64,000 nucleotides of DNA from Cohaesibacter intestini (GTDB taxonomy: Bacteria > Pseudomonadota > Alphaproteobacteria > Rhizobiales > Cohaesibacteraceae), in NCBI RefSeq assembly GCF_003324485.1, contig NZ_QODK01000005.1:124001-188000 (forward strand), read 5' to 3'. The position numbers were made by a program, and so were the translations under genes. This document shows, one piece after another, positions 11,951 to 55,692 of this stretch. The notes beneath the pieces were generated by a model. The model had not been told where the DNA came from and ran no database searches. It saw only the letters and a program-made list of their open reading frames with translations. How positions within the stretch are numbered: position 1 is the stretch's first letter; each line of letters opens with the position of its first letter.

Positions 11951-12799
11951 TCACGGTCGCAGACCGACGAGGTCGGCAGCGTCCTGGGCCGTTTTGCTGT
12001 CGTGAATAACAGCGCGACAGGCCTTCATGAGGGCCAGAGGATCATCGGACTGAAAAACCGAACGGCCAAACAGGATGCCCGCAGCCCCCGCGCCGATAAT
12101 TGTCGAGACCATTTCCAGCGTACCGAAATCGCTGTTTGTTTTTGGCCCCCCGGCCAGCATGATGGGCACCGGCAATTGTTTGGTGATGCGTTTGAGGGCA
12201 TCGGCGCTCCCGGGCCAGTCCGTCTTGATGATATCGGCCCCCATTTCCATGCCGATGCGGGCGTGAAAGCTGACAAAGTCACCATCATGGATATCAGGTG
12301 CCAAAGCATGGCGTGCGCCCATCGTCTCGATAATATGAACAATGCCGAGACGGCGTGCTGCCTGATTGACGTCTGCATTGGCACGAAAGCTTGCCGTTTC
12401 GACAGCCGGATCATTGTGCCCGACAAACATGTAGGTGATCACGGCCTCTGCCCCGAGGGCAACCGCATCCTCGACGCAAGCAACCAGCCTTGAATGTCCA
12501 TCTTCGTAGCTAAGGGCCGTGCCTTCTCTCCACATGGTGGTCTGATCAAGCCGCAGGATCAGCGCGGGGCCGCCATTCTGCACCAGCCTTGGCCCATAAT
12601 GCAGAGCGGATCCAAGCGGCAGAATGACCGCATCCACTCCGGCCTCGTTCATATTGTCCAGCATCTGCTCTGGATGCTCCATGCCCGGACAGGTGCCCAA
12701 TTGCAAGGCATGGTCAAATGCAATGCAAAAACCACGTCGGGTTGCAGGGTTCAGGATTCGGGACAGGCGAATTTGTTGGCCTAGGGTCTGAAGCATCAT
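11951..12799 (-). CDS. Class I aldolase of the DeoC/FbaB/LsrF superfamily
   Basis: TIM-barrel Schiff-base aldolase of 282 residues. Strand segments CIAFDHALQLG, GVDAVILPLG, AVITYMFVG and the lysine-bearing GADIIKTDWPGS fit the FbaB/LsrF family, followed by the phosphate-binding AGGPKT and AAGILFGRSVFQ. Several ATGs lie in frame (12805, 12799, 12796). TAAGG ends immediately before 12805, so 12799 or 12796 gives proper spacing. It is the third gene after a DUF1537 kinase and a DeoR regulator. Because the kinase/PdxA2 route yields dihydroxyacetone phosphate, an aldolase using that compound fits, but its true substrate is open. Confidence 0.85.
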   Translation of the reverse strand: MMLQTLGQQIRLSRILNPATRRGFCIAFDHALQLGTCPGMEHPEQMLDNMNEAGVDAVILPLGSALHYGPRLVQNGGPALILRLDQTTMWREGTALSYEDGHSRLVACVEDAVALGAEAVITYMFVGHNDPAVETASFRANADVNQAARRLGIVHIIETMGARHALAPDIHDGDFVSFHARIGMEMGADIIKTDWPGSADALKRITKQLPVPIMLAGGPKTNSDFGTLEMVSTIIGAGAAGILFGRSVFQSDDPLALMKACRAVIHDSKTAQDAADLVGLRP

Positions 12800-12810
12800 C
12801 TTCATCCTTA

Positions 12811-13605
12811 CTATATGAGTTTGAAAGAGAGCGCCGTTTGATGAAGCTGACTGGCGATCGTCTCATCAAGTGTCTTGCTAATCAGGATGTGATCGAACTC
12901 GGACAATTCGGCAAACTGGTTGAGCGCCCGCGTCCTGAACTTGCCAGCCGTCAGCAGCAGAGCTGTGCGCTCCGATGCCTGCATGAAAGCACGCTTGACG
13001 CGCAAGATGTCCTGATCCTGATGGAACAGACACTCACCAATCACGGACGCTGCGGACAGAAAGGCCCAGTCAGAACGCAATTGGCCGATCACATTCTCAC
13101 AGACAAGACCCGAAAAACTCTGGTGGGTATCATTATAGTCACCACCCGTGATGACCAGATGGACATTGGCAACATCCCGCAGGCGATCACACACGGCCAG
13201 TGAGTTGGAAATAACGGTGACATTCTCGATTGCCTCAAGATAGTCACACATCATCAGCGTCGTTGTGCTTTCATCCAGCATGATTACATTGCCCGGCTCG
13301 ATCAACGCCACGGCAGCGCGTGCCAGCTCCCGCTTTGCGCCTTCATCCGTTTGGCGCCGATAATGAAAATTGCTTTCAAACAGCAACGAGCTTTCCGCAG
13401 TCACCCCACCGCGTTGTTTGCGCAGAAGGCCCCGACTTTCCAGCACATCCAGATCCCGGTGGATGGTCATGCGGCTGACATTCAGCTCGGTGGTCAGTTG
13501 AGTGAGGGAGACGGATTTTTGCGCCTGCACCACCGACAAGATCTTTTGGCGCCGCGCCTCGCCTTTCAACCGGGCATCATCCTGCTTCGAAGGTGCCATC
13601 GTCAT
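12811..13605 (-). CDS. DeoR-family transcription regulator
   Basis: A 264-residue repressor with the DeoR N-terminal helix-turn-helix (LTQLTTELNVSRMTIHRDLD at about 35-54) and the sugar-phosphate-sensing ISOCOT domain (VIMLDESTTTLMM and VISNSLAVCDRL segments). It overlaps the kinase stop by four bases (ATGA). Targets are likely the divergent kinase and pdxA2-like promoters, where two TTGT/ACAA dyads are seen. The probable effector is a phosphorylated acid sugar, as for relatives. Confidence 0.92.
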   Translation of the reverse strand: MTMAPSKQDDARLKGEARRQKILSVVQAQKSVSLTQLTTELNVSRMTIHRDLDVLESRGLLRKQRGGVTAESSLLFESNFHYRRQTDEGAKRELARAAVALIEPGNVIMLDESTTTLMMCDYLEAIENVTVISNSLAVCDRLRDVANVHLVITGGDYNDTHQSFSGLVCENVIGQLRSDWAFLSAASVIGECLFHQDQDILRVKRAFMQASERTALLLTAGKFRTRALNQFAELSEFDHILISKTLDETIASQLHQTALSFKLI

Positions 13606-14978
13606 GATGCGTCACCATTCATCGCCCGCCCGAAAAAGTCATCCCCGCCGACCTGCCCGCCTTTCAAGGCCACCTGCAGATTGTTGATTGCCTCATCCTC
13701 TGAGTGGATGCGGCACAAAGGAGCACCGACGACCAGCGGACCCGCAACCTCCAGAGCCTTCACATGCATCGCGCTCATCGCATGACTTGAACTGTCGCCG
13801 CCAGCCAGAACCGTACGCTTCAGGTTGGTTTGCTTCACCACCGCATGCAGGACACGCCCAAGACTGCCACCCAGAATGGCGGAGCTGTCAGCCCCTTGCA
13901 TTCCATGGCGGTCCAGCGCCGCCAATGTCTCAGCAATCTTTGGATCATTGGGCCCTCTGGCGGTGTGAAGAACAACGCCCGGACGGTCTGAAGTGAGCGC
14001 CACCAGCTTTTGCACCAGCGCTTGCTCGGCTTGTGCGCCCTGTTCGATGAGAGCAACGGTGTCGACCGCCTCGACATGAAATCCATGGGCTTCAGCCCAT
14101 GTGATCTGCCGATCCGTTGTTGGCGAACAACTGCCACAAATCGCAATCAGGCGATCAACCGCACCGCATGGAGCGGGCGGTGGTGCGATGGGCAGGCGTC
14201 CTGTGTCTGTAAGATAGTCGGCCAGCGCATATTCCACACCGGACGAGCCAACAACAAAGGCCGGATGGTCTCGACAATGGTCAAACAGCAACTGCCCGGT
14301 CTTGTAAGTCGTGGCCTCATCGAACGTATCCAGAATAACCAGATCATTCTGTGCGCATTCCAAGGCAAAGTCTTGTGCAGCATCGGCCTTCAGCATGCGT
14401 CTGAAATCGAAAGACCCGATCTTGCGCTGCGTCTGTCGTGCCAGATGCAAACGCAAGTCCGCTTCATCCATGGGCGTGGCAGGATGCTTGCTCATGGTCG
14501 GATGGCGGTCGATCCGAAAAGCTTCGCTCTCGCCCGCGACACTTGCAGCAGCAAACAGGGTGGAAAAAACCACATAGCGGCGCAGACGCGTCACCCCGAC
14601 AACCACAGGAACACAGGCCCCAAAAATGTCCTGCCCGATCTCGATCGCCTTGCCTATGCTGCCGATCCTTGGTGAAGAATCGAAGGTGGAGCATGTCTTG
14701 TAGTGACAGAGGGGCGCTCCGAGCGCCTTCAGCTTTTCAAGAATGGGGGCCAAGTCAGTATCCATCCATTCGGGACTGCGGCTCCGACTGGTTCCGGCCA
14801 CGCCGACCGCGCGCAAGTGCGGATGGGCCGCCAGATCCTCTTTTTCGGGCGGCTCAAGAAACAACATGGACGGAATCCCGGCCATTGTGACCGACTCCAG
14901 CGCATCTGTAGAGCCTGTAAAATCGTCACCATAGAAGGACAGCAGCAACTCGGACTGAGCGTCAGGCTTTTTGGTCAT
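13602..14978 (-). CDS. Four-carbon acid sugar kinase (DUF1537, DtnK/OtnK-like)
   Basis: Kinase of 458 residues that phosphorylates four-carbon acid sugars such as threonate or erythronate with ATP. The N-terminal SFYGDDFTGSTDALE segment is the hallmark of the sugar-binding domain. The C-terminal nucleotide-binding domain carries VLHTARGPND and LAGGDSSSHAM. The ATG at 14978 was chosen because GGGAGG lies about 12 bases upstream and homologous sequence starts there. Upstream codons lack family similarity. It heads an operon with deoR and an aldolase. A divergent pdxA2-like gene completes the D-threonate route described for DtnK/PdxA2. Exact stereochemistry cannot be read. Confidence 0.92.
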   Translation of the reverse strand: MTKKPDAQSELLLSFYGDDFTGSTDALESVTMAGIPSMLFLEPPEKEDLAAHPHLRAVGVAGTSRSRSPEWMDTDLAPILEKLKALGAPLCHYKTCSTFDSSPRIGSIGKAIEIGQDIFGACVPVVVGVTRLRRYVVFSTLFAAASVAGESEAFRIDRHPTMSKHPATPMDEADLRLHLARQTQRKIGSFDFRRMLKADAAQDFALECAQNDLVILDTFDEATTYKTGQLLFDHCRDHPAFVVGSSGVEYALADYLTDTGRLPIAPPPAPCGAVDRLIAICGSCSPTTDRQITWAEAHGFHVEAVDTVALIEQGAQAEQALVQKLVALTSDRPGVVLHTARGPNDPKIAETLAALDRHGMQGADSSAILGGSLGRVLHAVVKQTNLKRTVLAGGDSSSHAMSAMHVKALEVAGPLVVGAPLCRIHSEDEAINNLQVALKGGQVGGDDFFGRAMNGDAS

Positions 14979-15058
14979 GATGGTTTGGAGCCTCCCGACA
15001 TATTGAGACGTGATTGGATTGGTCCAGTTGCCGGAAAATGTAGCATATGAGACCATTT

Positions 15059-15104
15059 TTACAACATCATTCCGTTTTATTGTAACTAAATTTGTGATAC
15101 AAAT
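15059..15104. promoter_or_regulatory. Two DeoR-type operator dyads between kinase and pdxA2 genes
   Basis: ATTTGT-GAT-ACAAAT at 15090-15104 is a perfect 6-3-6 dyad. TTACAA (15059-15064) and TTGTAA (15080-15085) form another pair just beside it. Both carry the TTGT/ACAA half-site and lie in the 227-bp divergent promoter region. The linked deoR product is the obvious binder. Confidence 0.5.
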
Positions 15105-15205
15105 GCAAACCGTCTGCCATGGCATATTGGCGCAGTCCTGCAAAGGCCGATTGCACCACACAAAAGGACGCATCATGGCAGCAAGACACAAAGGAGTTGG
15201 TCGCT

Positions 15206-16177
15206 ATGAATAGAATCGGAATCACAATGGGCGATCCGTCAGGCATAGGCCCCGAAGTCATCTGCAAAGCACTAAGCGCAATGACCCCAGAGGAGCGCTC
15301 TGGCGTGCTGGTCATCGGCGACCGGCTTTTCATGGACCGCGCAAGAGATCTGATCAAAAGTGACTTTCAGTTCTCTTGCGAAGAAAAACCAGCAGATGGC
15401 GATGTGCCATTTTTGCAGGTCGACGCCCCCAACGCCGCACAGATCCGCCCCGGTGAAATTCAGCCAGATGCGGGCGAAGCTGCCTGCCGGTGCGTGAAGA
15501 AAGCCGTGGAGCTGGCCCTCGCCGGAGAGATCGATGTCGTTTGCACCGCATCCCTGCACAAAACCGCCTTACGTGAAGCCGGATACAATCTCAGCGGCCA
15601 CGCCGGTCTGCTGAAGTTGTTCACCGGCGTTAAAAAGAACTTCGCCGTTCTCGCAGGACCCAAGCTTTCCGTCATTCATGTTTCTACCCATGTTTCTTTG
15701 GCAGATGCAGCCAAATACTGCACAAAAGATACGGTGCTGGAGACGATCCGCGTGGCCAACGAGCATGTGAAGACAACAGGGATCGCCACCCCGCGCGTTG
15801 CCATTGCCGGCATCAACCCCCATTGCGGTGAAAATGGCCACTATGGGTCAGAGGATGACGACTATGTTGTCCCGGCCGTTGCCGCCGCGCGCGCAGAAGG
15901 CATCGAGGCGTTCGGCCCCATTCCCGGCGACCTGGTTTTCGAGCAGGCAATTGCCGGCAAATACGACATTGTCGTCGCCCAATATCACGATCAGGGCCAC
16001 ATTCCCGCCAAGCTGATTGGCGGTCATGAATGCGTCAACATCACCGCCGGCCTCCCCATCCTCCGCACCTCGGTGGATCATGGAACGGCATTCGACATCG
16101 CGTGGCAAGGGATTGCAAACCCGGAAAACATGCAGGCTGCCATCACCATGGCCCGCCGGATGAAACCTCTGAAATAG
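15206..16177 (+). CDS. pdxA2: PdxA2-like 4-phospho-acid-sugar dehydrogenase
   Basis: A 323-residue member of the PdxA family. The start MNRIGITMGDPSGIGPE matches the family N terminus and has AAGGAG upstream of the ATG at 15206. Metal-site histidines are seen in NLSGHAGLL and in AQYHDQGHIPAKL, with the GINPHCGENG segment between them. True PdxA makes vitamin B6, while the PdxA2 branch oxidises and decarboxylates 4-phospho-D-threonate to dihydroxyacetone phosphate. The divergent DUF1537 kinase argues for the latter here. A terminator follows at 16215. Confidence 0.9.
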   Translation: MNRIGITMGDPSGIGPEVICKALSAMTPEERSGVLVIGDRLFMDRARDLIKSDFQFSCEEKPADGDVPFLQVDAPNAAQIRPGEIQPDAGEAACRCVKKAVELALAGEIDVVCTASLHKTALREAGYNLSGHAGLLKLFTGVKKNFAVLAGPKLSVIHVSTHVSLADAAKYCTKDTVLETIRVANEHVKTTGIATPRVAIAGINPHCGENGHYGSEDDDYVVPAVAAARAEGIEAFGPIPGDLVFEQAIAGKYDIVVAQYHDQGHIPAKLIGGHECVNITAGLPILRTSVDHGTAFDIAWQGIANPENMQAAITMARRMKPLK

Positions 16178-16214
16178 CCCCATAGGCCCACACATCAAAA
16201 AAACAACACCACAA

Positions 16215-16246
16215 AAAACCCGCTGAAACTGTTCTCAGCGGGTTTT
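16215..16246. terminator. Bidirectional terminator between convergent pdxA2-like and VOC genes
   Basis: AAAACCCGCTGA (16215-16226) pairs perfectly with TCAGCGGGTTTT (16235-16246) around an eight-base loop. A or T runs occur on both sides, so it works in both directions. Confidence 0.9.
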
Positions 16247-16307
16247 CTTGTGTGGGGACCGTATAATTTATCAATTATCAGGTAACTTATAACATAAAAA
16301 TGTTACA

Positions 16308-16850
16308 TTAGATTTGCGTCAGATCAGGAAATGGCCGGACAGGATCTGTCTTGCCATCCCACCCTTCACTGGTTTCCCGGATCAGGTCGAACATGCGACC
16401 CTTGGGACCAAGAACCTCGGACAGCTCGATCACCGTTCCGGGATGGCTTTCCTGCTCAAAATAGACGAACCGACCATCGGCGCCTACTTTGCCGCTCATC
16501 TTCACGGTGAAACCCGCATCCAGCATACCCTGAAGATCTTCATCGAAATTCTGCGTCCAGTAGGCAACATGCTGAAGCCCGCGCAGTTGCCGTTCCTTGA
16601 AGTCACGATACATCGACGGTGCATCGTTACGCGTCTGGATCAGTTCCACCTGAATATAGCCATCATTGGCCAAGGCGACGGAATTGTGGACCTCGTGATG
16701 CTCACCGTCGAACTGATAGTCCTCAATCGGCACGCGAGGATTATAGAACCACGGCCCGACACCCATCACGCTTGACCAATATTCCATTTCGGCCTCGATA
16801 TCGTCGACGACGAATCCGAGCTGACGAATTGGTCCAATATGCTTAGTCAT
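16308..16850 (-). CDS. VOC-superfamily protein (glyoxalase-like), TRAP-operon member
   Basis: A 180-residue vicinal-oxygen-chelate protein. The two beta-alpha-beta-beta-beta modules place likely metal ligands at Gln10 (RQLGFVVDD), Glu69 (IQVELIQ), His94 (LQHVAYW) and Glu142 (TVIELSEV), the Q/E/H/E set known from human-type glyoxalase I. It is last in a minus-strand operon, ten bases after the TRAP large permease. The substrate is probably a product or epimer of the compound imported by the TRAP system. Isomerase, lyase or dioxygenase chemistry cannot be separated from sequence. Confidence 0.85.
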   Translation of the reverse strand: MTKHIGPIRQLGFVVDDIEAEMEYWSSVMGVGPWFYNPRVPIEDYQFDGEHHEVHNSVALANDGYIQVELIQTRNDAPSMYRDFKERQLRGLQHVAYWTQNFDEDLQGMLDAGFTVKMSGKVGADGRFVYFEQESHPGTVIELSEVLGPKGRMFDLIRETSEGWDGKTDPVRPFPDLTQI

Positions 16851-45473: not shown

Positions 45474-48400
45474 TCATGTTTTCGGCTTGCCATAACCGAA
45501 ATCCGTGAGAATGGCGAACAGGCTTGGCACCAGGAACAGAGACAGGACCGTGGCCGTCAGCAAACCGAATGCAAGGCTGTTGACGAGCGGGATGAGAAAC
45601 TGCGCCTGCGTACTGCTTTCTGCCAGCAATGGCAACAACCCGGCAATCGTGGTCATTGACGTCATCACCACGGCTCTGAAGCGGGCTTTTGCGGCCTGTT
45701 TGGTGGCTTCCATCGGGTCATGCCCGGCTTCCATTTCCCCATGTATGAAGGAGACCAGAAGGATCGAATTGTTGACCACCACCCCCGACAGGGTCGCCAG
45801 ACCGACAAGACTTGGAATGGAGATGTCCAGTCCCATTGCCAGATGCCCGAGGACCATGCCGATGGCCCCAAGAGGGATCGCGGCAAGGACAATGATCGGC
45901 AAGACATAACTCTTGAACTGGAAGCTGAGCAGAATAAAGACAAAGGCAAGGCCAATCAGGAAGTTGGTCCGCAAGGAGCTGCCCGTTGTTGACGCTTCTT
46001 TGCCCTGACCGTTGAAGGCCATGGACACACCGGGATAGTTCTTCTTCAGGGCCGGAGCGAACTTGCTCTTCACCTCCATCATCAATTCACGCGCATTGAC
46101 GATGTTGGGCTTGATCGCCCCGATGACAGACACGGTACGCATGCCATCGACACGGTTGATGCGCGCATAGCCGCGACTTTCGGTGACATCAGCCACCGTG
46201 GCCAGAGGCACCTTCGAGCCGTCCGCGGCGGTTACATAGATCGCATTGATGCCACCACGGCTGTCAATTGCGCCATCGGCAAGCCGCACACGCACATCAA
46301 CACCATAGCGACCGGTCTGAACCTCAAGGCCAGTATTGCCCTGCACGATAGAGCGCAATTCTTCTGACACGCCCTTGCCCGTCAGCCCAAGACTCCCCGC
46401 ATCGTCATGCAGCTTGACAACATATTCAGGCTTGCCAGGACGCAGATCATCAAGCACATCGACAACTCCGTTATAGCCATAGAGAAAGACCTTTAGATCA
46501 TCGGCCGCTTTCTTGATTTGCTCCAGATTGCCGCCCCGCAGACGCAGATCGATGGCATTGCCAGCAACACCGCGCTCCTTGTCGGTGAATTTCATGGCAA
46601 GGCTCCCCGGTACAGGCCCGGTCAGTTTCCGCCAACTCGAAAGCATCTCCTGCAAGGAGCCTTTGCGTTTCTGCGCTCGGATCAGGTCGGCACTGATGGT
46701 CGCCTGATGCGGCCCTTTCTCATGAGAGTCTGCATTGACCCCATAATAGACCAGAATATTGTTGACCAGATCGCGCTGTTCGCTCTGCAGGGGTTTGAAC
46801 TTGTCATTGACCTTCTTGAGCGCTGCAACAACCTGCTGCACCGCCACTTCGGTCTCCGCAAGCGGCGTTCCCTGTGGCATCAGAATACGGGCCTGAATGG
46901 TATCGCTTTCCAGTTTCGGGAAGGAACGGAATTTCAGCATCCCACTGGAAAAGGCCCCGTAAGACAGGATCAGCATGGCAAGGATCAGCCCGGTGGTCAG
47001 ATAGCGCCAGGATATCGCCCAATCGATCATTCGGCCAAAGACCCCATTGCGAAAGCCTTCGAACCCACGATCAAAGGCGGCGTGGAACCGAGATGGCTTT
47101 CTCTCTCCCTGTTTTTTGAGAGAATGATACAGATGGGACGGCAGAATCAGGAAGGCCTCGATGAGACTGATTGCCAGCGTGATGACAAGGATCACCGGCA
47201 GGACCTTGAGCACCGCCCCGATTTTACCGGCCATCAGAGCCAATGGGCCGACAATCAAAATCGTCGTGAGGAAGGACGAAATGACGCTTGGCAACACCTG
47301 CAAGGTGCCTTTCACCGCCGCATCCAGTTCATCTTCGCCCTTTTTGAGACGCGCGCCGATATTTTCCGAAATGACGATGGCATCGTCCATCAGCAAGCCA
47401 GTCGACACGATCAGCCCGACCATGGTCATGGTGTTGAGCGTATAGCCCAGCCCCTGCATGGCAAAGATGGCCCCGAGAAAGGAAACCGGCAGCCCCATCG
47501 CCACCCAGAAACTGTAACGCAGCGAGAAGAACAGCCACATCACCAGAAAGACGAGCGCCAGACCCTGAAGGCCATTCTCGGAAAGGATGCGCAACCGATC
47601 CACAATGTTGGGGGAGACATCCTGAGAGATGTTGAGACTGACGCCCGGAGGCGCCATGGACCGTTCATTTTCCAGAATGGTATCAATCAGCGCCTTGACC
47701 TTCAGGGTATCCTGTTTGGGGGTCTTGGCAATTTCGATCAACGCGGCACGCTGGCCGTTGAACGTGACCTTGTCTTCGGCAAATTCAAACGCACGGGATA
47801 ATGCTGCAATATCCTTCAGGCGCACCACACCACCATTGGCCGAGCTTTTGACGACGATATTGGCAAATTCGCGCGGTTTTCTGCGCTGGTCGGCATAGCG
47901 CAGAACCAGATCACCGCTTTTGGTCTCCAACGTACCCGATGGCAAGTCGACACTCTGGGCCTTGATGGCAGACGTGACGTCATTGATGCTCATGCCCAGA
48001 TCCCGCAGCGCGGCTTCGGACACGCGAATATCAATCACCGGATCAGAAAACCCCTTCAGGGTTGCCTGAGCGATCTGCTTGTTACGCATCACCCGCGAGA
48101 GGACCTTGTCGGCATAGGCAAACAAACCGCCCGGATCATCGATGCCCGTGATGGCAATCGTCGAAATGATTGCAGTCCGCTCCATCTTGGTGACTGAGGG
48201 CCGTTCAACATTGGCCGGGAAGCCGGTTATGGCTTCGATTTCGCTCTTGATGTCATTGTAAAAGGTATCGAAGTCCCGCCCCTCGATCATCGTGACCACG
48301 CCAATGGCCAGATTTTCCCGTGCTTCACAGGTCAGTTCCAGCTTGTCGGGAATGACCCCGAGGGCTTCCTCGACGCGCAAACAGATCGCCTCTTCCACAT

Positions 48401-48566
48401 CGAGCGCCGTTGCCCCCGGATAGGTGACGCGCACTTCCACCTGCGTCGGATCAGTGATGGGAAAGGTATCCCGTTGCAGCTTGGGCAGCGCCAGCACGCC
48501 GACAAGCAGGATTGCGACCATCAGCAGATTGGCTGCTGTGGGATGCTTTGCAAAATAGCGGATCAT
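45474..48566 (-). CDS. RND efflux pump inner-membrane transporter (AcrB/HAE-like)
   Basis: A 1030-residue proton-driven exporter of the resistance-nodulation-division family. The N terminus (IRYFAKHPTAANLLMVAILL), the paired aspartates of helix 4 (STGLLMDDAIVISENIG) and the second-half helix GLATLSGVVVNNSILLV are all present. Two large periplasmic loops match the porter domains. Sequence fits the HAE-1/HAE-2-like group without MFS-type heavy-metal marks, so drugs or small organics are likelier than metals. The start is two bases after the adaptor stop. No outer-membrane factor gene is nearby. Confidence 0.95.
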   Translation of the reverse strand: MIRYFAKHPTAANLLMVAILLVGVLALPKLQRDTFPITDPTQVEVRVTYPGATALDVEEAICLRVEEALGVIPDKLELTCEARENLAIGVVTMIEGRDFDTFYNDIKSEIEAITGFPANVERPSVTKMERTAIISTIAITGIDDPGGLFAYADKVLSRVMRNKQIAQATLKGFSDPVIDIRVSEAALRDLGMSINDVTSAIKAQSVDLPSGTLETKSGDLVLRYADQRRKPREFANIVVKSSANGGVVRLKDIAALSRAFEFAEDKVTFNGQRAALIEIAKTPKQDTLKVKALIDTILENERSMAPPGVSLNISQDVSPNIVDRLRILSENGLQGLALVFLVMWLFFSLRYSFWVAMGLPVSFLGAIFAMQGLGYTLNTMTMVGLIVSTGLLMDDAIVISENIGARLKKGEDELDAAVKGTLQVLPSVISSFLTTILIVGPLALMAGKIGAVLKVLPVILVITLAISLIEAFLILPSHLYHSLKKQGERKPSRFHAAFDRGFEGFRNGVFGRMIDWAISWRYLTTGLILAMLILSYGAFSSGMLKFRSFPKLESDTIQARILMPQGTPLAETEVAVQQVVAALKKVNDKFKPLQSEQRDLVNNILVYYGVNADSHEKGPHQATISADLIRAQKRKGSLQEMLSSWRKLTGPVPGSLAMKFTDKERGVAGNAIDLRLRGGNLEQIKKAADDLKVFLYGYNGVVDVLDDLRPGKPEYVVKLHDDAGSLGLTGKGVSEELRSIVQGNTGLEVQTGRYGVDVRVRLADGAIDSRGGINAIYVTAADGSKVPLATVADVTESRGYARINRVDGMRTVSVIGAIKPNIVNARELMMEVKSKFAPALKKNYPGVSMAFNGQGKEASTTGSSLRTNFLIGLAFVFILLSFQFKSYVLPIIVLAAIPLGAIGMVLGHLAMGLDISIPSLVGLATLSGVVVNNSILLVSFIHGEMEAGHDPMEATKQAAKARFRAVVMTSMTTIAGLLPLLAESSTQAQFLIPLVNSLAFGLLTATVLSLFLVPSLFAILTDFGYGKPKT

Positions 48567-48568
48567 GA

Positions 48569-49909
48569 TTATTTTGCCCCTTTGCTTGGCGCTTTGCCAG
48601 AGGCTTCTGCCATCACGCGTTCGAGCAATTTCTTGTCAGGCTTGGGTCCCACCAGCATGCCGTCGACAGGGGCGGGCATATCGGACACGATCACCTTCTC
48701 CTTTGGCTCCAGACCAGACATCAAAACGGCGATGTCTCCCTGAATATAGGCCACCTTGACCGGCTTGAAGCGAAGGCGCTTTTCCGCATCGACCACCATC
48801 ACCTTGCCTTTGCGAATGGCAGAGGCTGGAAGCGCGAACATGTTCTTTCTCGGCATCCCCTGAAGAATGACCTCGACCGCAGTATCCGTCACCAGAGGCG
48901 GTTTCTGCCCCGGGCTGGCCTGCCCATAGGGGTCCTGCACGGTCAGCACGATCCCTCGCGTTCGGGTTTTGGGATCCATCGCCGCAGTCACGCGGTCAAC
49001 CCTTGCCTCCCAGAGGATGTCGGACCGGGGTGTATGCAGAACCACCTTGGCTTTCATGGCCGTGTGGCGGTTGGCATCCGCTCCCTCCTGAGAAGACAAG
49101 GCATTGAGTGGTGCGCCGTCTTCGCCCGCTTTTCCGATCAGGGGACGCAACGCCCCGATGGGCAATTGTGCGACAATCTCCGCAACAGCAATGCCATCTC
49201 CTGAAAACAGCTTCTGCCCTTTATTGACATATTGGCCCACCGAAATATCAACCGACGACAACCGCACATCAAACGGCGCCTTGAGCTCGGTGCGTTTGAG
49301 GTTGAGCAGCGAGATCTCGCGTTGCTGCTGGAGAACTTTACCTTCCGCTTCGTTGAGCTTCAGGGTGCTTTTGAGCGTCTGCACCTTGGCATCTTGAGTC
49401 AGCAATGCCCGTTCCGCAGCATCAACACCGGCCTGCGAAGTCGAGCCGCGCGAAAGCAGGGATTTCTTTCGGCCCAGATCATCCTCAAGCAGAGCCAAGG
49501 CTCGTTGTTCGATTTTCAACGAAGCCGCAATTGTGTCCGTTTTGGTGTTCAACGCCTCGATCTGGGCCTCGATCTGGGCGAGCGCCAGTTCATATTCCCG
49601 CTCGTCGATTTTCAAAAGGCTTGCGCCTTTCGCAATGAGCAACCCATCCCTCAGACTGTCTGCCGTCCAGATAACCGGACCGGCCACCTGCGCCACAGCG
49701 TCCCATTTGCGATCCGGCTGCACCTTGCCATAGGCCGACACGGACGGGACAACCGTCATTGGCTTGGCACCAATGACTTTGACCGGCGTCGGCTTTTCCT
49801 TCCCTTGCGTTGCGACTTGAGGAGATTTGGCCGATTGCCCGGACAAAACGAAAAGGCCGATTGCGAGGGCCACCGGAGGAACAATCAGGAGTTTTTTCAG
49901 GATACTCAT
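48569..49909 (-). CDS. RND efflux periplasmic adaptor (HlyD/MFP family)
   Basis: A 446-residue membrane-fusion protein with a single N-terminal membrane anchor (LLIVPPVALAIGLFVLSG), lipoyl half-domains (VSAYGKVQPDRKWDAVAQVAG), a long coiled-coil hairpin at about 125-225 and beta-barrel parts (FDVRLSSVDISVGQYVNKGQ). It links the RND pump to an outer-membrane channel. Operon order adaptor then pump is standard. The region upstream carries a 31-bp dyad likely used by a regulator. Confidence 0.92.
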   Translation of the reverse strand: MSILKKLLIVPPVALAIGLFVLSGQSAKSPQVATQGKEKPTPVKVIGAKPMTVVPSVSAYGKVQPDRKWDAVAQVAGPVIWTADSLRDGLLIAKGASLLKIDEREYELALAQIEAQIEALNTKTDTIAASLKIEQRALALLEDDLGRKKSLLSRGSTSQAGVDAAERALLTQDAKVQTLKSTLKLNEAEGKVLQQQREISLLNLKRTELKAPFDVRLSSVDISVGQYVNKGQKLFSGDGIAVAEIVAQLPIGALRPLIGKAGEDGAPLNALSSQEGADANRHTAMKAKVVLHTPRSDILWEARVDRVTAAMDPKTRTRGIVLTVQDPYGQASPGQKPPLVTDTAVEVILQGMPRKNMFALPASAIRKGKVMVVDAEKRLRFKPVKVAYIQGDIAVLMSGLEPKEKVIVSDMPAPVDGMLVGPKPDKKLLERVMAEASGKAPSKGAK

Positions 49910-50134: not shown

Positions 50135-50548
50135 ATGACCAACAAACTCGGACCTATTGCCCTTGTGGCCGCAACCTGCCTTTCAGCCCCCGCCGCCGCA
50201 CAGAGCGGCATCGCGCTTTATGAAGACAATTGTGCTGCCTGCCATGGCGGCTACGAAATGGGAGATGATCGTGTTGCTCCGCCGATTTTCGCGGTTCAGG
50301 GCCATTACCTTTCGGCCTATCCAGACAAGACCACCTTCACCAAAGCCATTGTGGCATGGGCAAAGGACCCAAGTCTGGCCCGCGCCCGCATGCCCGGCGC
50401 CATTCGTCGGTTCGGCTTGATGCCAGCGGTCGAACTCTCCGATGAGGATGCGGCAAAAATCGCAGAATTCATCTATGACGGTCAGTTTGATCGCCCGGGA
50501 TGGTATGCCGATCACTATCGTCAAGAGCATGGCAAGGCGCCCAAATGA
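50135..50548 (+). CDS. Small periplasmic c-type cytochrome
   Basis: A 137-residue protein with a signal peptide (cleavage near AAAQ at residue 23), one haem site CAACH (33-37), and methionines 86 and 96 as possible axial ligands. It is an electron carrier in the periplasm. It lies upstream of the DUF2946/NosL genes on the same strand, but 163 bases apart with a promoter between, so joint regulation is only inferred. Confidence 0.88.
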   Translation: MTNKLGPIALVAATCLSAPAAAQSGIALYEDNCAACHGGYEMGDDRVAPPIFAVQGHYLSAYPDKTTFTKAIVAWAKDPSLARARMPGAIRRFGLMPAVELSDEDAAKIAEFIYDGQFDRPGWYADHYRQEHGKAPK

Positions 50549-50601
50549 TCGCCGGACCCTCAGCTTGGTCAAAATGACGCAGCATAACCATGCATATGTT
50601 T

Positions 50602-50624
50602 GTCATTTTTGACTTTCGTATAAT
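50602..50624 (+). promoter_or_regulatory. Promoter with dyad ahead of the DUF2946-like gene
   Basis: A consensus TATAAT (50619-50624) is preceded by the dyad GTCA-TTTT-TGAC (50602-50613). A related dyad, GTCA-AAA-TGAC, lies at 50568-50578. A repressor or MerR-like activator overlapping the promoter spacer is plausible. The -35 box is weak. Confidence 0.4.
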
Positions 50625-50680
50625 TTCTTCACAGAGATGCATCCTGTTTGCTAACACGGAATCAAATCTGATGAAGGGGG

Positions 50681-50698
50681 AGCCGGTCCAAACCGGCT
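50681..50698 (+). other. Leader hairpin before the DUF2946-like gene
   Basis: AGCCGGT (50681-50687) pairs with ACCGGCT (50692-50698) around CCAA, 14 bases before the ATG at 50712. It would lie in the 5' leader of the message from the promoter above and close to the start codon. Confidence 0.45.
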
Positions 50699-50711
50699 TC
50701 TTGATCTGACA

Positions 50712-51116
50712 ATGCAATCCATACGCAAGGACATGTTGGCCCTGTGCATCACGCTGATCGCGCTGATCAGCCAGATGTTCTTTGGCATTGTTCATGCGAC
50801 ATCGATCTGGACCGCAGCCGCCGGCCCGATCGCTCAGGTTGAAGTCGGGTCCGTTGCACATAGTTTCCTTCAGATTTGTTCTGCCGGTGGTCTCGTCACC
50901 CTTGAGGGCGAGACCGAGAGCTCTGGAACCTTTGATCCAAGCCTCTGTTCTGTCTGTTCTTCTGCTGTCGCCTCTCCCACACTGGAAGGCGAGGAACCGG
51001 TTCTGCCGACGACACAGCAGGTCTTCACAACAGTCTCTTTCAAGTCCGGTGACCAAATTGGCACACCAAGGCTGGCGCAGGCCAACTTCGCTCGCGGTCC
51101 TCCTCTCTTTTCCTGA
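50712..51116 (+). CDS. DUF2946-like exported small protein
   Basis: A 134-residue protein with one N-terminal hydrophobic segment (LCITLIALISQMFFG) and three cysteines in the remainder: Cys56 and the pair C79-x2-C82 in DPSLCSVCSSA. The C terminus ANFARGPPLFS matches the RGPP ending common in DUF2946 proteins, which often lie in copper-related loci. Function unknown, and metal binding by the cysteines is inferred. The gap 51117-51249 holds no clear terminator, so it may be co-transcribed with the NosL genes. Confidence 0.72.
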   Translation: MQSIRKDMLALCITLIALISQMFFGIVHATSIWTAAAGPIAQVEVGSVAHSFLQICSAGGLVTLEGETESSGTFDPSLCSVCSSAVASPTLEGEEPVLPTTQQVFTTVSFKSGDQIGTPRLAQANFARGPPLFS

Positions 51117-51249
51117 CATTGATGCAAGGCCAGACCAACTGCACCCATTTCCCATGGGCGCATGCGCCAGATATTGAGCCATCGTCGGCTATTGCCCGCG
51201 GTTGGTCTTGCCTTTCCCTTTATTCCGTTTTGAAAAGAGAGACCAACTC

Positions 51250-51873
51250 ATGAACCGTCGTACCCTTTTGACCTCGGCAGCGCTCGCCCCTGTTGCGCTG
51301 GCCCTGTCCTCCCTCGCCGCCGCTGCCAAGATGGTCACCCCTTGGGAGTGGACCCGCAAGAATGGCGTCACGGGCCATATGCAAAAAGACCCCGATCCGA
51401 CCGACAAGGAATTCGAGAAATATCCGCGCTGCACCTATTGCGGCATGGTGCGTGAACAATGGAGCCACTCGCGCCATCTCATTCAGTATGACGATGACTC
51501 GACCGAGGGCACCTGTTCGATCCATTGCGCCTCCTTGTCCATCGGCCTCAATATGGATCGTGCACCCAAAAACATCTGGGTGGGAGACGCAGGATCAGAC
51601 GCCGAGGTCAAACCGTTGATCAAGGTTGAAGATGCCCACTACGCCCTCGATCCCTCCAAGCCCGGCACCATGTCAGCAACGCGCAAATGGGCCTATGCCG
51701 ACCCGGCCAAGGCTGCTGCGGTTGGAGCAGAGCGCGTGGTGCCTTTCGAACAGGCGCTGGAAGCGGCTTATTCCGACATGGCGAAAAACACGCTGATGAT
51801 CCGCAAGCGCCGGGCTGAGAAGCGAGCCCACATGGCCAAAAAAATGAAGATGATGAAAGACAAGGCCAACTAA
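51250..51873 (+). CDS. NosL-like protein 1, Tat-exported, CxxC metal site
   Basis: A 207-residue protein of the NosL family (copper-binding accessory proteins). The ATG at 51250 starts a twin-arginine signal (MNRRTLLTSAALAPVAL). The NosL core has CTYCGM (61-66), HSRH (73-76), and a second pair C89/C93 in TCSIHCAS, which suggests a four-cysteine or Cys-Met-His site. The C terminus is rich in Lys and Met (KKMKMMKDK), possibly a metal-loading tail. No nosZ gene is in the window, so a role outside nitrous oxide reduction is likely. Confidence 0.85.
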   Translation: MNRRTLLTSAALAPVALALSSLAAAAKMVTPWEWTRKNGVTGHMQKDPDPTDKEFEKYPRCTYCGMVREQWSHSRHLIQYDDDSTEGTCSIHCASLSIGLNMDRAPKNIWVGDAGSDAEVKPLIKVEDAHYALDPSKPGTMSATRKWAYADPAKAAAVGAERVVPFEQALEAAYSDMAKNTLMIRKRRAEKRAHMAKKMKMMKDKAN

Positions 51874-51904
51874 GCCACAACCTCCATCATCTTGATGGAA
51901 TGGA

Positions 51905-51950
51905 GGACAAGCCAACGGCGGAGTGAGCCCCGTCACGGCTTGTCCTTTAT
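51905..51950 (+). terminator. Attenuator-like hairpin between the two nosL-like genes
   Basis: GGACAAGCC (51905-51913) pairs with GGCTTGTCC (51937-51945), with an inner ACGG/CCGT helix, followed by TTTATT. It is 30 bases after the first nosL stop and 30 before the second start. Partial termination would make the first protein in excess over the transporter genes. Confidence 0.65.
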
Positions 51951-51979
51951 TCGCATCCTCTTGCCGCGGGAGCGCGCCA

Positions 51980-52519
51980 ATGTGCACAAGACCCAATCTG
52001 ACCAGACGCAGCCTGATTGCCGCCGGGTTGTCAGCGCCAATGATGCTGCACGCAGCAAAGGCATCGGCCTCCGAGCTGCTTTTCACACCCTTTGGCACGC
52101 CTATGCCGCATGATCGCGACGCCTGCCCGGTTTGCGGCATGTTTCCCGCGCGGTATCCAGACTGGATTGCGACGGTGCTCTACAAAGACGGCCATGCCGA
52201 CCATTTCGACGGAGCAAAGGACCTGTTCAAATATCTGCTCGATATGGACAAATATGCCTCGGGGCGCAAAAGGGAAGACATCCTGCATGTGGGCGTAACG
52301 GACTATTATGCAATCGAGCGGATAGACGCCCGTAAAGCCCTCTATGTCATAGGCTCCGACATTTTGGGACCGATGGGCCATGAACTTGTGCCCCATCCGG
52401 ATCGCTATGATGCGGATGAGTTCATGAAGGACCATCAAGGCAAGCGCATCCTGACCTTTGGGGATGTGACGATGGATCTTCTGCTTGGCCTGGACAACGG
52501 GGAGTTCCGGCTCAAATGA
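51980..52519 (+). CDS. NosL-like protein 2, Tat-exported
   Basis: A 179-residue NosL-family protein. The ATG at 51980 gives a twin-arginine signal (LTRRSLIAAGLSAPMML). The metal motif is CPVCGM (49-54), followed by HADHFDGAKDLFKYL (72-86) and GPMGHELVPH (130-139), the M/H-rich end typical of NosL. It differs strongly from NosL-like protein 1. It overlaps the next small gene by four bases, so both are translated together with the ABC genes. Confidence 0.87.
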   Translation: MCTRPNLTRRSLIAAGLSAPMMLHAAKASASELLFTPFGTPMPHDRDACPVCGMFPARYPDWIATVLYKDGHADHFDGAKDLFKYLLDMDKYASGRKREDILHVGVTDYYAIERIDARKALYVIGSDILGPMGHELVPHPDRYDADEFMKDHQGKRILTFGDVTMDLLLGLDNGEFRLK

Positions 52520-52839
52520 CCCTCCGTCCATCCCTCGCCATCGTCTCCTTGCTTTGCGTCCTGACGGTCCTGCTTGGTGCAGCCCTGCTCCATGCCGGCC
52601 TGTCCCCCATGCGCCAGCAACATGCAAGCAGCCCGGTCCGACAGTTGGGCTTGAGCGATCTCGCGCTGTTCACCGAAGCCCGCTACACACGCCACCCGAC
52701 CATGGCTGACCTTCACACCCCCTTTCAGGATCATCCGGTCTCTATTGATCACTTTCCCACCGGCTCGCTGATCGGACCGCCACAGCATCTGCGACAGCTT
52801 GGTGGACAGATGACAATCGAGGGAGTGTCAAGACCATGA
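52516..52839 (+). CDS. Small anchored protein of the NosL-ABC operon
   Basis: I do not recognise this 107-residue protein. It has one N-terminal membrane segment (SLAIVSLLCVLTVLLGAALL) and a periplasmic tail with the histidine-rich stretch FTEARYTRHPTMADLHTPF and DHPVSIDHFPTGS. Overlaps of four bases on both sides (ATGA) show that it belongs to the operon. It could be an adaptor between NosL-like proteins and the permease. Confidence 0.75.
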   Translation: MTLRPSLAIVSLLCVLTVLLGAALLHAGLSPMRQQHASSPVRQLGLSDLALFTEARYTRHPTMADLHTPFQDHPVSIDHFPTGSLIGPPQHLRQLGGQMTIEGVSRP

Positions 52840-53984
52840 CCCATTCTCCTCTCCGGCGACAGTTGAACTTGATCGACTTCACACTCGCCGCGATGCGCCG
52901 ACGCCTCGGGCGCAACGCCATTCTCTTTGTCGTTTATGTGCTCGTTATTTTTCTCCTCGCCTCCGTCATGTTCTTCTCCCATGCCATCCGGCGCGAGGCG
53001 TCTGTGATGCTTGCCGACGCCCCGGAAATCACCATCCAGCACCTTGTCATGGGGCGTCACGATCTGGTGCCCCTCTCCTATCTCGACAAGATAGGCAAGA
53101 TCCGCGGCGTTCGATCGGCAGAGGGGCGGCTCTGGGGTTACTATTATGACCGGGGCACCAAGGCGAATTATACCCTGATGGTGCCGGGCAAGAACGCAAC
53201 AAACCTCAAGCTGGAGGAAGGCCAAACCATTCTTGGCGAAGGGGTTGCCCGTCTGCGCAAGGCCCAAAAGGGGCGCATACTGGCTCTCAGCTCACCGACA
53301 GGCAAACCGCTTGTCATGCGCATCAAGGACATTCTGACCAGCGACAGCGCTCTGGTCACCTCTGATCTGGTGCTGGTCAGCGAAGCGGACTTCCGCAAAT
53401 TTTTCAACCTGCCGCAAGATGTCTATACCGATCTGGTCCTCAGCGTGCGCAATCAGCGTGAAGTCGCAACGATTGTGGGAAAAGTATCCTATCGTCTACC
53501 TGATGCCCGCATCGTCACCCGCAGCGATGTGTTGCGCACTTATGAGGCCATTTTCTCCTGGCGCGAAGGCTTGCTGCTGGCCCTGCTCGGCACCTCGATC
53601 ATTGCCTTCACGATTTTCGTCTTTGACAAGGCGTCGGGTTTGTCCGGAGAAGAGAGACGGGAAATCGGCATCTTGAAAGCCATTGGCTGGGACACCGGAG
53701 ACATTCTGGCGATGAAAGTCTGGGAGGCAGCACTGCTGTCCGGCCTGTCCTTCCTGACGGGAACATTGACAGCCTATGCTCATGTCTTCCTGTTTGACGC
53801 TGGATTGCTCAAGCCGGTCTTGCAGGGCTGGGGCGTGCTCTATCCCGACTTCACCCTTCCCCCCGCGATTGATGGCTTGCAATTGGCGACGCTCGCCTTT
53901 TTCACCATTGTGCCCTTCACGGCCGCCACCATTGTGCCGATCTGGCGGGCCGCCATCACAGACCCGGAACAGGTGATGCGATGA
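52836..53984 (+). CDS. FtsX/MacB-type ABC transporter permease
   Basis: A 382-residue permease with the four-helix FtsX layout: one helix at about 27-48, a large periplasmic domain (about 50-240), and three C-terminal helices (from LLLALLGTSIIAFTIF at about 248, then two more ending near WRAAITDPEQVMR). The cytoplasmic coupling segment EERREIGILKAIGW is typical. Such permeases usually move lipoproteins or act mechanically on periplasmic partners and do not import small molecules. It overlaps both neighbours by four bases. Confidence 0.9.
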   Translation: MTHSPLRRQLNLIDFTLAAMRRRLGRNAILFVVYVLVIFLLASVMFFSHAIRREASVMLADAPEITIQHLVMGRHDLVPLSYLDKIGKIRGVRSAEGRLWGYYYDRGTKANYTLMVPGKNATNLKLEEGQTILGEGVARLRKAQKGRILALSSPTGKPLVMRIKDILTSDSALVTSDLVLVSEADFRKFFNLPQDVYTDLVLSVRNQREVATIVGKVSYRLPDARIVTRSDVLRTYEAIFSWREGLLLALLGTSIIAFTIFVFDKASGLSGEERREIGILKAIGWDTGDILAMKVWEAALLSGLSFLTGTLTAYAHVFLFDAGLLKPVLQGWGVLYPDFTLPPAIDGLQLATLAFFTIVPFTAATIVPIWRAAITDPEQVMR

Positions 53985-54688
53985 TCACACTTGAAAATGT
54001 GTCCAAGTCCTATAATGACGGCCAGCCAAACGAGGTCCGGGCCGTCCAGTCTGTCTCCCTGTCCCTCCCCCTCAACCAGACGACTGTCTTCAAGGGTCCA
54101 AGTGGCTCTGGCAAGACGACCCTTCTTAGCGTGATCGGCTGCCTCGCGCGACCGACATCAGGTCGCGTGCATCTGAAAGGAGAGCTGATTTCCGGGTTGC
54201 CCGAGAAGTTCATGACCGACATTCGCCGTCAGACATTCGGCTTCATCTTCCAGCGTTTCAATCTCATTCGCGGCATGACGGCCCTTGAGAATGTCATGGC
54301 CCCGGCCTTGCCACTGGGGCTTGACCATGGAGCACTCAAGCGAAAAGCTCTGGATTTGCTCACCCAATTGCGACTTGATCACCGCGCCTCTGCCCCATCC
54401 GAGCTTCTGTCCGGCGGCGAAGCGCAACGGGTCGCCATTGCCCGTGCGCTGATCAACGATCCCGCCATCCTCATTGCTGATGAGCCGACCGCCAATCTCG
54501 ACACCACCCTCACCACAGACTTTCTCGCCACCATGGACACGCTGCGTCAGGCAGGCAAGACCCTGTTGATGACCAGTCATGACCCACGCATTTGGCAGGC
54601 CCCGTTGGTCGACAGGATTGTCAGCATGGAAGATGGGGCTGTTGTCGAGATCGAGCTCGGAACCAAGACGGGACATGCGCCATCATGA
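53981..54688 (+). CDS. ABC transporter ATPase (LolD/MacB type)
   Basis: A 235-residue ATP-binding subunit. Walker A GPSGSGKTT (39-47), Q loop FQRFNL, signature LLSGGEAQRVAIARAL (about 141-156), Walker B ILIADEPTANLD and switch histidine in MTSHDPR. It pairs with the FtsX-type permease just upstream. The stop overlaps the next gene by four bases. Confidence 0.95.
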   Translation: MITLENVSKSYNDGQPNEVRAVQSVSLSLPLNQTTVFKGPSGSGKTTLLSVIGCLARPTSGRVHLKGELISGLPEKFMTDIRRQTFGFIFQRFNLIRGMTALENVMAPALPLGLDHGALKRKALDLLTQLRLDHRASAPSELLSGGEAQRVAIARALINDPAILIADEPTANLDTTLTTDFLATMDTLRQAGKTLLMTSHDPRIWQAPLVDRIVSMEDGAVVEIELGTKTGHAPS

Positions 54689-55692
54689 TTTTCCAAAGCA
54701 CGATTCTGGCGCTCTTGCTGGTGGCGAGCCTTTCCAGCCTCATCCTGCTCTGGGCGGCGCATTTTTCCTATCAGATCCTCCAGCGTTGGAATCTGGAAAG
54801 CGGGTTGGCGCAGCAAATCCGGATGGAACGCAAGACCTACCTCGTCTCCACGGCGCTGGCTTTCGTCATGGGGATCGAGCTGATCAGCCTGTTGCTGTTT
54901 GTCTATAATGCGGACCGGATGGCGGTGATGTTCACCGGCGCCATGTGTGCGGTCGGCACCCTCAATGTCAACGCCTATGGTTTTCCGGCCTTGCTGTTCA
55001 AACTGGCAGCCTTTTTCGGGGCCTTTGTCTGGCTCATTCTCAACAAAGTGGATGGCAAGGGGCGCGATTATCCCCTCACCCGTTTTAAATATGCCTTCCT
55101 GATTGGATTGGCCCCCGTGATGCTCGCCAGTGCCGGGCTGCAACTGGCCTATTTCCTCAATCTGGAAACCGAAGTCATCACCTCCTGTTGCTCGCGCCTC
55201 TTCACCCCGGAGGTGGCCGGCCTTGAAGCCCAGCTGGCATCAATGGATGCCGAGTTGGCTTTGTGGCTACTCTATGCCGGTCTTGGTGTCCTGACCTTGC
55301 TGGCAACGCTTGGGCTGTGGCGATCCCGCCTGTCTGCCCTCTATGCTTTTGTCAGCCCTTTCTATTTTCTAGCGGCCATCACGGCGATCATCTCGGTGAT
55401 TGCCCCCTACATTTATGCCCAGCCGCACCATCACTGCCCGTTCTGCATCCTCAAACCTGAATATGACTTTATCGGCTATGGGCTTTATCTCAGCTTGTTC
55501 ATTGGCACCGGTTTCGCCTTGGCAGCGGGCTTTCTGTCTTTGCCCATCAAGGCCACACGGGCCGCAAGCCTGACATCTCACCTGCCGCAAGCTGTCTCAC
55601 GCTATATCGGATATTCAATCGCCGCCTATCTGACCTTTGGCGCCCTGTGTCTCTTTGCGATCTGGACGTCCAATCTACGGCTCTTTGGCTAA
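54685..55692 (+). CDS. Polytopic membrane protein with CC and HHHCPFC motifs (unknown)
   Basis: I cannot assign this 335-residue protein to a known family. It has about eight hydrophobic segments. Possible metal-binding residues are Cys88 (FTGAMCAVGTLN), the pair Cys168-Cys169 (VITSCCSRLF) and the cluster His248-250, Cys251, Cys254 (QPHHHCPFCIL), the last two sites probably in or near periplasmic loops. It is coupled to the ABC ATPase by a four-base overlap and ends the operon. With two NosL-like chaperones upstream, it may be a copper channel, reductase or sensor. This is inference only. Confidence 0.78.
   Translation: MIFQSTILALLLVASLSSLILLWAAHFSYQILQRWNLESGLAQQIRMERKTYLVSTALAFVMGIELISLLLFVYNADRMAVMFTGAMCAVGTLNVNAYGFPALLFKLAAFFGAFVWLILNKVDGKGRDYPLTRFKYAFLIGLAPVMLASAGLQLAYFLNLETEVITSCCSRLFTPEVAGLEAQLASMDAELALWLLYAGLGVLTLLATLGLWRSRLSALYAFVSPFYFLAAITAIISVIAPYIYAQPHHHCPFCILKPEYDFIGYGLYLSLFIGTGFALAAGFLSLPIKATRAASLTSHLPQAVSRYIGYSIAAYLTFGALCLFAIWTSNLRLFG

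Follow-up and report, generated by a model that had tools for sequence, protein, structure and literature searches.

What joins two NosL-like proteins, an ATP-binding cassette (ABC) transporter and a polytopic membrane protein of no recognized family in a single operon? This combination is found in a 64 000-nucleotide stretch of the 4.79 Mb genome of Cohaesibacter intestini (positions 124,001 to 188,000 of contig NZ_QODK01000005.1; hereafter the window), where six forward-strand genes at 51250-55692, here termed the cassette, encode NosL1, NosL2, a small protein, a permease, an ATPase and a 335-residue membrane protein (TM335). By sequence comparison, TM335 is a new membrane-protein family. 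An ATP-powered role of the cassette in handling copper, or another soft metal, is well supported; the specific interpretation developed here, that it is a periplasmic copper-relay (metallation) machine for cuproenzyme assembly, has in our estimation about an even chance of being right. The coordinates of all six genes, and the four ATGA overlaps that connect the last five, agree with an earlier reading of this DNA made from its letters alone (the sequence-only reading). The cassette and its principal motifs, all on the forward strand, are as follows (A3 is an alignment of 60 TM335 sequences).

51250-51873, forward strand: NosL1, 207 residues, with an N-terminal RR, C61-TYC-G-M66 and a second Cys pair (CSIHC).
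51980-52519, forward strand: NosL2, 179 residues, with an N-terminal RR and C49-PVC-G-M54; Pfam NosL, 1.1e-28.
52516-52839, forward strand: small protein, 107 residues, with a single N-terminal hydrophobic stretch and the motifs AR(Y)xR..D and HFP.
52836-53984, forward strand: ABC permease of the LolCE/MacB type (FtsX superfamily), 382 residues; Pfam FtsX, 1.3e-7.
53981-54688, forward strand: ATPase of the LolD/FtsE type, 235 residues; Pfam ABC_tran, 1.3e-29.
54685-55692, forward strand: TM335, polytopic membrane protein of a new family, 335 residues, with eight predicted transmembrane (TM) helices.
54937-54948, forward strand: GAMC motif of TM335 (residues 85-88), in the loop after TM2, present in 60/60 sequences of A3.
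55186-55191, forward strand: CC motif of TM335 (residues 168-169, within SCC), in the loop after TM4; SCC in 60/60 sequences of A3.
55429-55446, forward strand: HHCPFC motif of TM335 (residues 249-254), in the loop after TM6, present in 59/60 sequences of A3.

Searches of Pfam, NCBIfam, PHROGs and the sequences of the PDB gave TM335 no significant match; structure searches of the PDB and of viral models returned nothing significant, and no match was found on PLSDB plasmids or INPHARED phages. The sequence-only reading had held that a clear match to a family with a non-metal role would speak against its proposal, and the profile search yielded none. Two affiliations were rejected: a weak TgpA_N match of one homologue (18.7 bits, cut-off 30) was taken as chance, and comparison with three NosB sequences gave an hhalign probability of 0.1%. 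One scan of GTDB representatives produced at least 595 pattern matches, at least 567 of them TM335 relatives, the nearest named one among the matches listed being from Cohaesibacter haloalkalitolerans (77% identity). By record title the relatives belong to alpha-, beta- and gammaproteobacteria, with a few from metagenome-assembled genomes (MAGs) labelled Gemmatimonadetes, Deltaproteobacteria and Stygiobacter, labels that depend on MAG binning; culturable carriers include Thioclava, Rhodobacter and Rhodobium, of which R. orientis has Sec-type NosZ. From these relatives 80 loci (L021-L100) were kept, which together with the window make up the 81 loci considered below, each of up to 19 kb and some ending near the cassette or at contig ends.

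Alignment A3 contains the TM335 of the window and of 59 of the 80 loci, and the single sequence lacking HHCPFC has HHCPFD instead. Of the CC and HHHCPFC motifs that the sequence-only reading singled out, C168-C169 and H248-C254 are present, but H248 is not conserved (H in 34/60, N in 21), so the motif is HHCPFC rather than HHHCPFC; the third motif, GAMC, had been overlooked. The loci were retrieved with patterns over GAMC and HHCPFC, and the conservation of these two is therefore partly a product of the search and counts for less in favour of a metal site, whereas SCC lay outside the patterns. Unbiased whole-protein and profile searches of two genome samples, of the order and of the phylum, recovered homologues in which, where aligned, the motifs are kept. 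The most remote of them, at locus L149, is 25% identical to the C. intestini protein (alignment A5) and has GAMC, TCC and HHCPFD. Loss of the Cys/His motifs among homologues, which would have counted against the proposal, was thus not seen: even in L149 they persist, with the last Cys changed to Asp and mostly the same neighbours.

An AlphaFold2 model of TM335 (mean predicted local distance difference test score, pLDDT, 88.4; predicted template modelling score, pTM, 0.88) has eight long helices. Since the motifs lie in the loops after TM2, TM4 and TM6, all are on one face of the model, and this single face carries every near-invariant Cys and His of the protein, plus M87. Across A3, the fraction of Lys and Arg is 0.175 in the loops of the opposite face vs 0.034 on the motif face, so the latter is probably periplasmic. 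The Cys, His and Met residues modelled there would form a copper-binding site.

Cassette genes in the 81 loci were found with hidden Markov models built from the proteins of the window, on which the gene orders also rest. TM335 and the ATPase are present in all 81 loci, the permease in 79, the small protein in 72, NosL2 in 67, NosL1 in 65 and an upstream DUF2946-like open reading frame (ORF) in 34. The order of the window (DUF2946-NosL1-NosL2-small-permease-ATPase-TM335) occurs in 32 loci and the same order without DUF2946 in eight, while 20 have small-permease-ATPase-TM335-NosL1-NosL2 and 21 have other or incomplete orders. At L149, NosL2, the small protein, the permease and the ATPase adjoin TM335, and NosL1 was not found; a 273-residue protein without a Pfam family is encoded between NosL2 and the small protein (L149:11105-11926, reverse strand). 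Alpha-, beta- and gammaproteobacteria alike have kept the cassette, most of it also surrounding this 25%-identical homologue, and the co-occurrence of TM335 with NosL and FtsX/LolD-type genes that the sequence-only reading suggested looking for is borne out in the relatives.

Both NosL assignments hold, at different strengths. NosL2 scores 100.7 bits, above the curated Pfam cut-off, and matches the NosL chains 7og7, 7osf and 7znq of the PDB (1e-6 to 1e-5); NosL1 scores 23.7 bits (6.7e-5), just below the cut-off of 24, and 11 other genomes have a second, weaker NosL above that cut-off beside NosL2 on the same contig. The CxxCGM motif is present in 62/65 NosL1 and 66/67 NosL2, and, counting positions along the longer ORFs, a second Met is conserved as M157 in 100% of NosL1 and as M151 in 99% of NosL2; a CXXCXM motif has been reported in clade II NosL (PMC6530538). 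An N-terminal RR, seen by eye in both proteins of the window, recurs in 61/65 NosL1 and 49/67 NosL2 ORFs, which agrees with the suggested export by the twin-arginine translocation (Tat) system, the Tat signal itself being putative. By analogy with their family, NosL1 and NosL2 would hold Cu(I) in the periplasm. The small protein has no significant Pfam family. Its description as His-rich does not hold for its relatives, in which the near-invariant parts are AR(Y)xR..D and HFP (72/72); an ARYTRH-type motif is found in 60/72 and QDHP in 44/72.

The permease and ATPase, correctly recognized beforehand as an FtsX-type permease and its ATPase, belong to the LolCDE/MacB class: the permease has four TM helices and a large periplasmic domain, and its partner is LolD-like. 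Foldseek of the permease model (AlphaFold2, pLDDT 82.9) ranks LolCDE best (3.5e-16), and also finds MacB (TM-score 0.67), HrtBA, BceAB and FtsX. The lipoprotein-releasing LolCDE complex itself is rejected, as both equivalog cut-offs are missed, by the ATPase (NCBIfam LolD, 2.1e-53, 181 vs 308 bits) and by the permease (NCBIfam LolCE, 25.9 vs 362 bits). In this class cytoplasmic ATP hydrolysis is coupled to movement in the periplasm, where its members find their substrates, and by analogy the permease and ATPase of the cassette would work on the periplasmic side.

The TM335 family is strongly associated with nosZ, the gene of nitrous oxide (N2O) reductase, mostly of the Sec-type. This was followed in a sample of 150 genomes of the order, with NosZ scored against the TIGR04246 cut-off, and in a sample of 398 genomes of the phylum, with TM335 at E<=1e-20 and NosZ at E<=1e-60. 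NosZ proteins above the cut-off are presumably the Sec-type (clade II) enzyme, a label taken from the nosB/C/D/G/H-like gene order in L131 and L132, where genes were named by their order. In the order, where TM335 was found in 10/150 genomes, over-cut-off NosZ occurs in 12/150, comprising 8/10 genomes with TM335 vs 4/140 without (p 4e-9); of the remaining TM335 genomes, C. intestini has a lower-scoring NosZ and G119 none at E<=1e-30. Copper nitrite reductase (NirK; 2/10 vs 24/140, p 0.55) and cbb3 oxidase (CcoN; 10/10 vs 111/140, p 0.11) were discarded as clients that the family might track, the association in the order sample being absent or not specific. In the phylum, any NosZ is found in 6/7 genomes with TM335 vs 54/391 without, and over-cut-off NosZ in 2/7 vs 5/391; the seventh TM335 is the remote homologue, in a genome with no NosZ. 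Of the 79 genomes behind the 80 loci that were searched (L042 was left out), NosZ is present in 45 and exceeds the cut-off in 34 of these, compared with 60/398 and 7/398 in the phylum sample.

Four of the 80 loci contain nosZ itself: L029 (with TM335, SCO, nosZ, two cytochromes, nosB and nosD), L068, L081 (a 63-residue fragment at the locus edge) and L100 (a clade I-like cluster). One TM335 carrier, G402, has two full Sec-type nosZ of equal score (922.5 bits) about 3 kb apart. The statement of the sequence-only reading that nosZ, nosD and nosY are absent is true locally, blastp finding no NosD- or NosY-like ORF at 43001-64000 of the window; it does not extend to the genome, where nosZ lies on another contig (L137) adjoining nosR-, nosD-, nosF-, nosY- and nosL-like genes, nor to a family that is nosZ-associated. 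In a set of 18 genomes with over-cut-off NosZ, a weak NosL shares the contig of nosZ in ten, scoring under the Pfam cut-off in three of these, and lies on a different contig in G014. In three TM335 carriers (G027, G137 and G402) the cassette NosL is the only NosL found, weak NosL being easily missed, and the cassette may stand in for an absent nos-cluster NosL.

Several observations weigh against N2O reductase as the only client. The NosZ of C. intestini is only a lower-scoring one. Four genomes of the order have over-cut-off NosZ and no TM335, and while three of these are 84-88% complete, the fourth, G096, is 99% complete (1250 contigs); in the phylum, 5/7 over-cut-off NosZ genomes lack TM335. 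No NosZ was found in 34/79 TM335 genomes, including Thioclava isolates, Rhodobacter aestuarii, R. capsulatus DSM 1710 and Cohaesibacter haloalkalitolerans. Shared ancestry makes the p-values too small. In 5/9 genomes with both TM335 and over-cut-off NosZ, the nosZ contig has a weak NosL of its own, so the cassette there is an addition rather than a replacement. A nosZ has been reported for R. capsulatus (rcp00075; PMC5359404), and strain loss or assembly gaps may therefore contribute to the NosZ-less carriers. Even so, with so many cassette genomes lacking a detected nosZ, NosZ is not the sole client and others must exist; for the NosDFY of Parageobacillus, service of a NosL-ABC set to a recipient other than NosZ has likewise been proposed (PMC13068155). 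The cassette may help NosZ maturation without defining it, a client relationship that the statistical and positional link suggests.

Three further features precede the cassette in the window, again on the forward strand.

50135-50548, forward strand: c-type cytochrome gene, upstream of the DUF2946-like ORF.
50712-51116, forward strand: DUF2946-like leader ORF, 134 residues, candidate copper-sensing upstream ORF of the CruR/CutF kind.
51126-51214, forward strand: long predicted RNA hairpin between the leader ORF and NosL1.

The sequence-only reading had listed the cytochrome and the DUF2946-like ORF together ahead of the operon. The ORF recurs in 34/81 loci; the cytochrome was rejected as part of the system, as blastp (E<=1e-4) finds it only in the window. 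The leader ORF scores 18.3 bits with Pfam DUF2946, below the cut-off of 23.7, and contains CxxC (79-82) and RGPP (128-131) with 45 residues between them, a spacing of 45-49 across the 34 loci. CruR of Bordetella, a copper sensor with CxxC and RAPP separated by 45 residues, switches a copper-acquisition operon off with copper (PMC9426467); another DUF2946 leader that responds to copper, CutF, governs a copper-induced oxidase (PMC9973294). The cassette leader resembles both in the distance from CxxC to RxPP and in being the first gene of a copper-type operon, and differs from CruR in having RGPP rather than RAPP. By word search, 'NosL' is absent from the main texts of both papers (PMC9426467, PMC9973294), so the downstream cassette is seemingly not named there. 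By this analogy the leader ORF probably gives copper control of the operon in many alphaproteobacteria. The RNA at 51085-51270 folds at -57.9 kcal/mol (z -4.17; 0/200 shuffles as good), and L021 has a strong stem at the corresponding place. Close to the start of NosL1 the window shows a third pairing element that would suggest a switch, but its z is only -1.05 and it could not be recognized in relatives, so no switch is proposed. Just 5' of the leader ORF, another hairpin (50655-50730; -21.6 kcal/mol, z -1.9), with purine-rich AAGGGGGAG on its 5' side, could either terminate the cytochrome gene or belong to the leader. On contig C7 of the same genome, a small Cys-rich ORF (CNRCPDC; L137:5833-6387) precedes the nosZ cluster; it is DUF2946-like by eye, has no NCBIfam match, and makes copper-leader control of that nos operon possible.

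Genes for copper proteins surround the cassette in part of the family. By blastp, the 81 loci include TlpA-like proteins (31), DsbD_2 (20), P-type ATPases (18), SCO (16), ATPase-cat_bd/TRASH proteins (15) and TonB receptors (6); the window itself has none of these. The sole ATPase tested, of L041, exceeds the copper-translocating cut-off (571 vs 397 bits), and of three receptors tested that of L097 exceeds the TonB-copper cut-off (776 vs 472 bits), whereas those of L074 and L048 fall below. In L048, from a gammaproteobacterial MAG, the receptor (by Pfam) lies directly downstream of NosL2 together with two further genes (12632-16439), presumably an ECF (extracytoplasmic function) sigma factor-like and a FecR-like one, an arrangement that suggests metal-regulated receptor expression tied to the cassette. 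The ATP-powered copper role rests on the kept motifs, the copper genes near the cassette in some relatives and the copper-sensor-type leader in 34/81 loci; these support the sequence-only proposal in part, namely for ATP-driven copper handling. The passage of copper through TM335 is a part that the location of the Cys/His residues and M87 on one face and the class of the permease do not support.

The copper-relay interpretation would proceed as follows. NosL1 and NosL2, once exported, would carry Cu(I) on their CxxCGM sites; ATP hydrolysis by the LolD-type ATPase would move the periplasmic domain of the permease and so force the release of copper from NosL1 and NosL2 (or its loading onto them), a process in which the small anchored protein may be a docking or relay subunit. 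TM335 would take or hand on copper at a periplasmic thiol/imidazole site formed by M87-C88, C168-C169 and H249-H250-C251(-C254), from which it would reach apo-cuproenzymes, N2O reductase, and especially its Sec-exported clade II form, being the commonest client. In loci that have them, TlpA-like proteins and DsbD_2 might maintain the thiols in their reduced state, SCO might act on CuA sites, and the P-type ATPase might provide Cu(I) from the cytoplasm. Metal binding by TM335, the direction of transfer, docking, clients and regulation are all proposed here by inference.

The alternative that survives best, though unlikely, is copper import, in which NosL would capture periplasmic copper, TM335 energized by the ABC engine would move it to the cytoplasm, and a P-type ATPase would forward it to cuproenzymes. 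Such a system would suit high-affinity acquisition under copper starvation, and it draws on the TonB copper receptor of L097, related receptors in five more loci (that of L074 below the cut-off), the P-type ATPase in 18/81 loci and the CruR-like leader, whose Bordetella counterpart represses an acquisition operon with copper. The near-invariant Cys and His of TM335 are, however, on one face only, permeases of the LolCDE/MacB class act on periplasmic substrates, and receptor and ATPase are absent from the window and most loci.

Distinctly unlikely is a thiol-redox function, in which TM335, through its CC pair and CPFC, would keep the cysteines of NosL and SCO reduced in a role like that of CcdA/DsbD or VKOR/DsbB. 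CPxC is a redox-like motif, and the frequency of TlpA-like (31/81) and DsbD_2 (20/81) genes fits. Yet Asp replaces the final Cys of CPFC in 1/60 sequences and in L149, a change that a CxxC redox site is unlikely to survive; HH and M87 equal the Cys residues in invariance, and several relatives already own TlpA-like and DsbD_2 genes for that task.

Next to the cassette and divergent from it, the window encodes an RND efflux pump and HlyD-type adaptor (45474-49909, reverse strand; Pfam ACR_tran, 3.6e-158). These genes, and the control of a copper-induced oxidase by the CutF leader (PMC9973294), would fit a cassette that strips excess periplasmic copper and passes it to an efflux path. The chance of such a detoxification role appears slim: the genes with which the cassette is associated are those of N2O reductase and of assembly-type factors (SCO, TlpA-like), and the RND cluster recurs in only 5/81 loci, other resistance genes not having been searched for. 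A further reading, in which the cargo of the ABC engine would be lipoproteins or some other non-metal substrate and the NosL genes would be passengers, is very improbable: although LolCDE gives the best structural matches, NosL accompanies the cassette in alpha-, beta- and gammaproteobacteria, NosL2 even in the remote homologue, and copper genes recur nearby.

The copper-relay interpretation places the cassette beside several known systems. NosDFYL is the copper-loading ABC machine of N2O reductase and acts on periplasmic copper; its structure was reportedly described in a 2022 paper. The two share a NosL-type copper chaperone beside an ABC engine, with NosL2 related to chains 7og7, 7osf and 7znq, and would work alike, by ABC-assisted transfer of copper in the periplasm, but the cassette has two RR-bearing NosL proteins, a small anchored protein and TM335, and in C. 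intestini the nosZ cluster lies apart from it and includes another NosL. As it lacks NosD and NosY, uses an ABC engine of another class (LolCE/MacB) and has an extra membrane protein of a new family, the cassette is not a NosDFY member. It shares the permease fold and LolD-type ATPase of LolCDE/MacB (type VII ABC) systems, from which it differs in its single permease gene, its NosL and copper neighbours and the missed LolCE and LolD equivalog cut-offs. NosB, an unexplained polytopic membrane protein of clade II nos clusters for which electron transport or copper management has been suggested (PMC9697520), resembles TM335 in being polytopic and in its tie to clade II NosZ, but has no profile similarity to it, and both are present in L029 and L068. 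No description of the operon or of TM335 was found in the accessible text of Creative Commons-licensed literature in PubMed Central, and the operon, widespread in bacteria, is apparently undescribed.

A broader proposal is made tentatively and may well be wrong: that TM335 founds a new family of copper-relay membrane proteins and, together with a pair of NosL chaperones and a LolCDE-type engine turned to a new use, makes up an ABC machine that metallates cuproenzymes, N2O reductase included, and that would stand beside NosDFY as a second one of independent origin. Whether denitrifiers release or consume the greenhouse gas N2O depends in part on how copper is supplied to N2O reductase. If the proposal is true, hundreds of loci would encode an unannotated second ABC copper system, enriched in carriers of Sec-type NosZ, as a missing accessory factor; TM335 would be a new family of membrane metal-proteins, and LolCDE/MacB-type transporters would have a new job, that of moving metal between periplasmic proteins.

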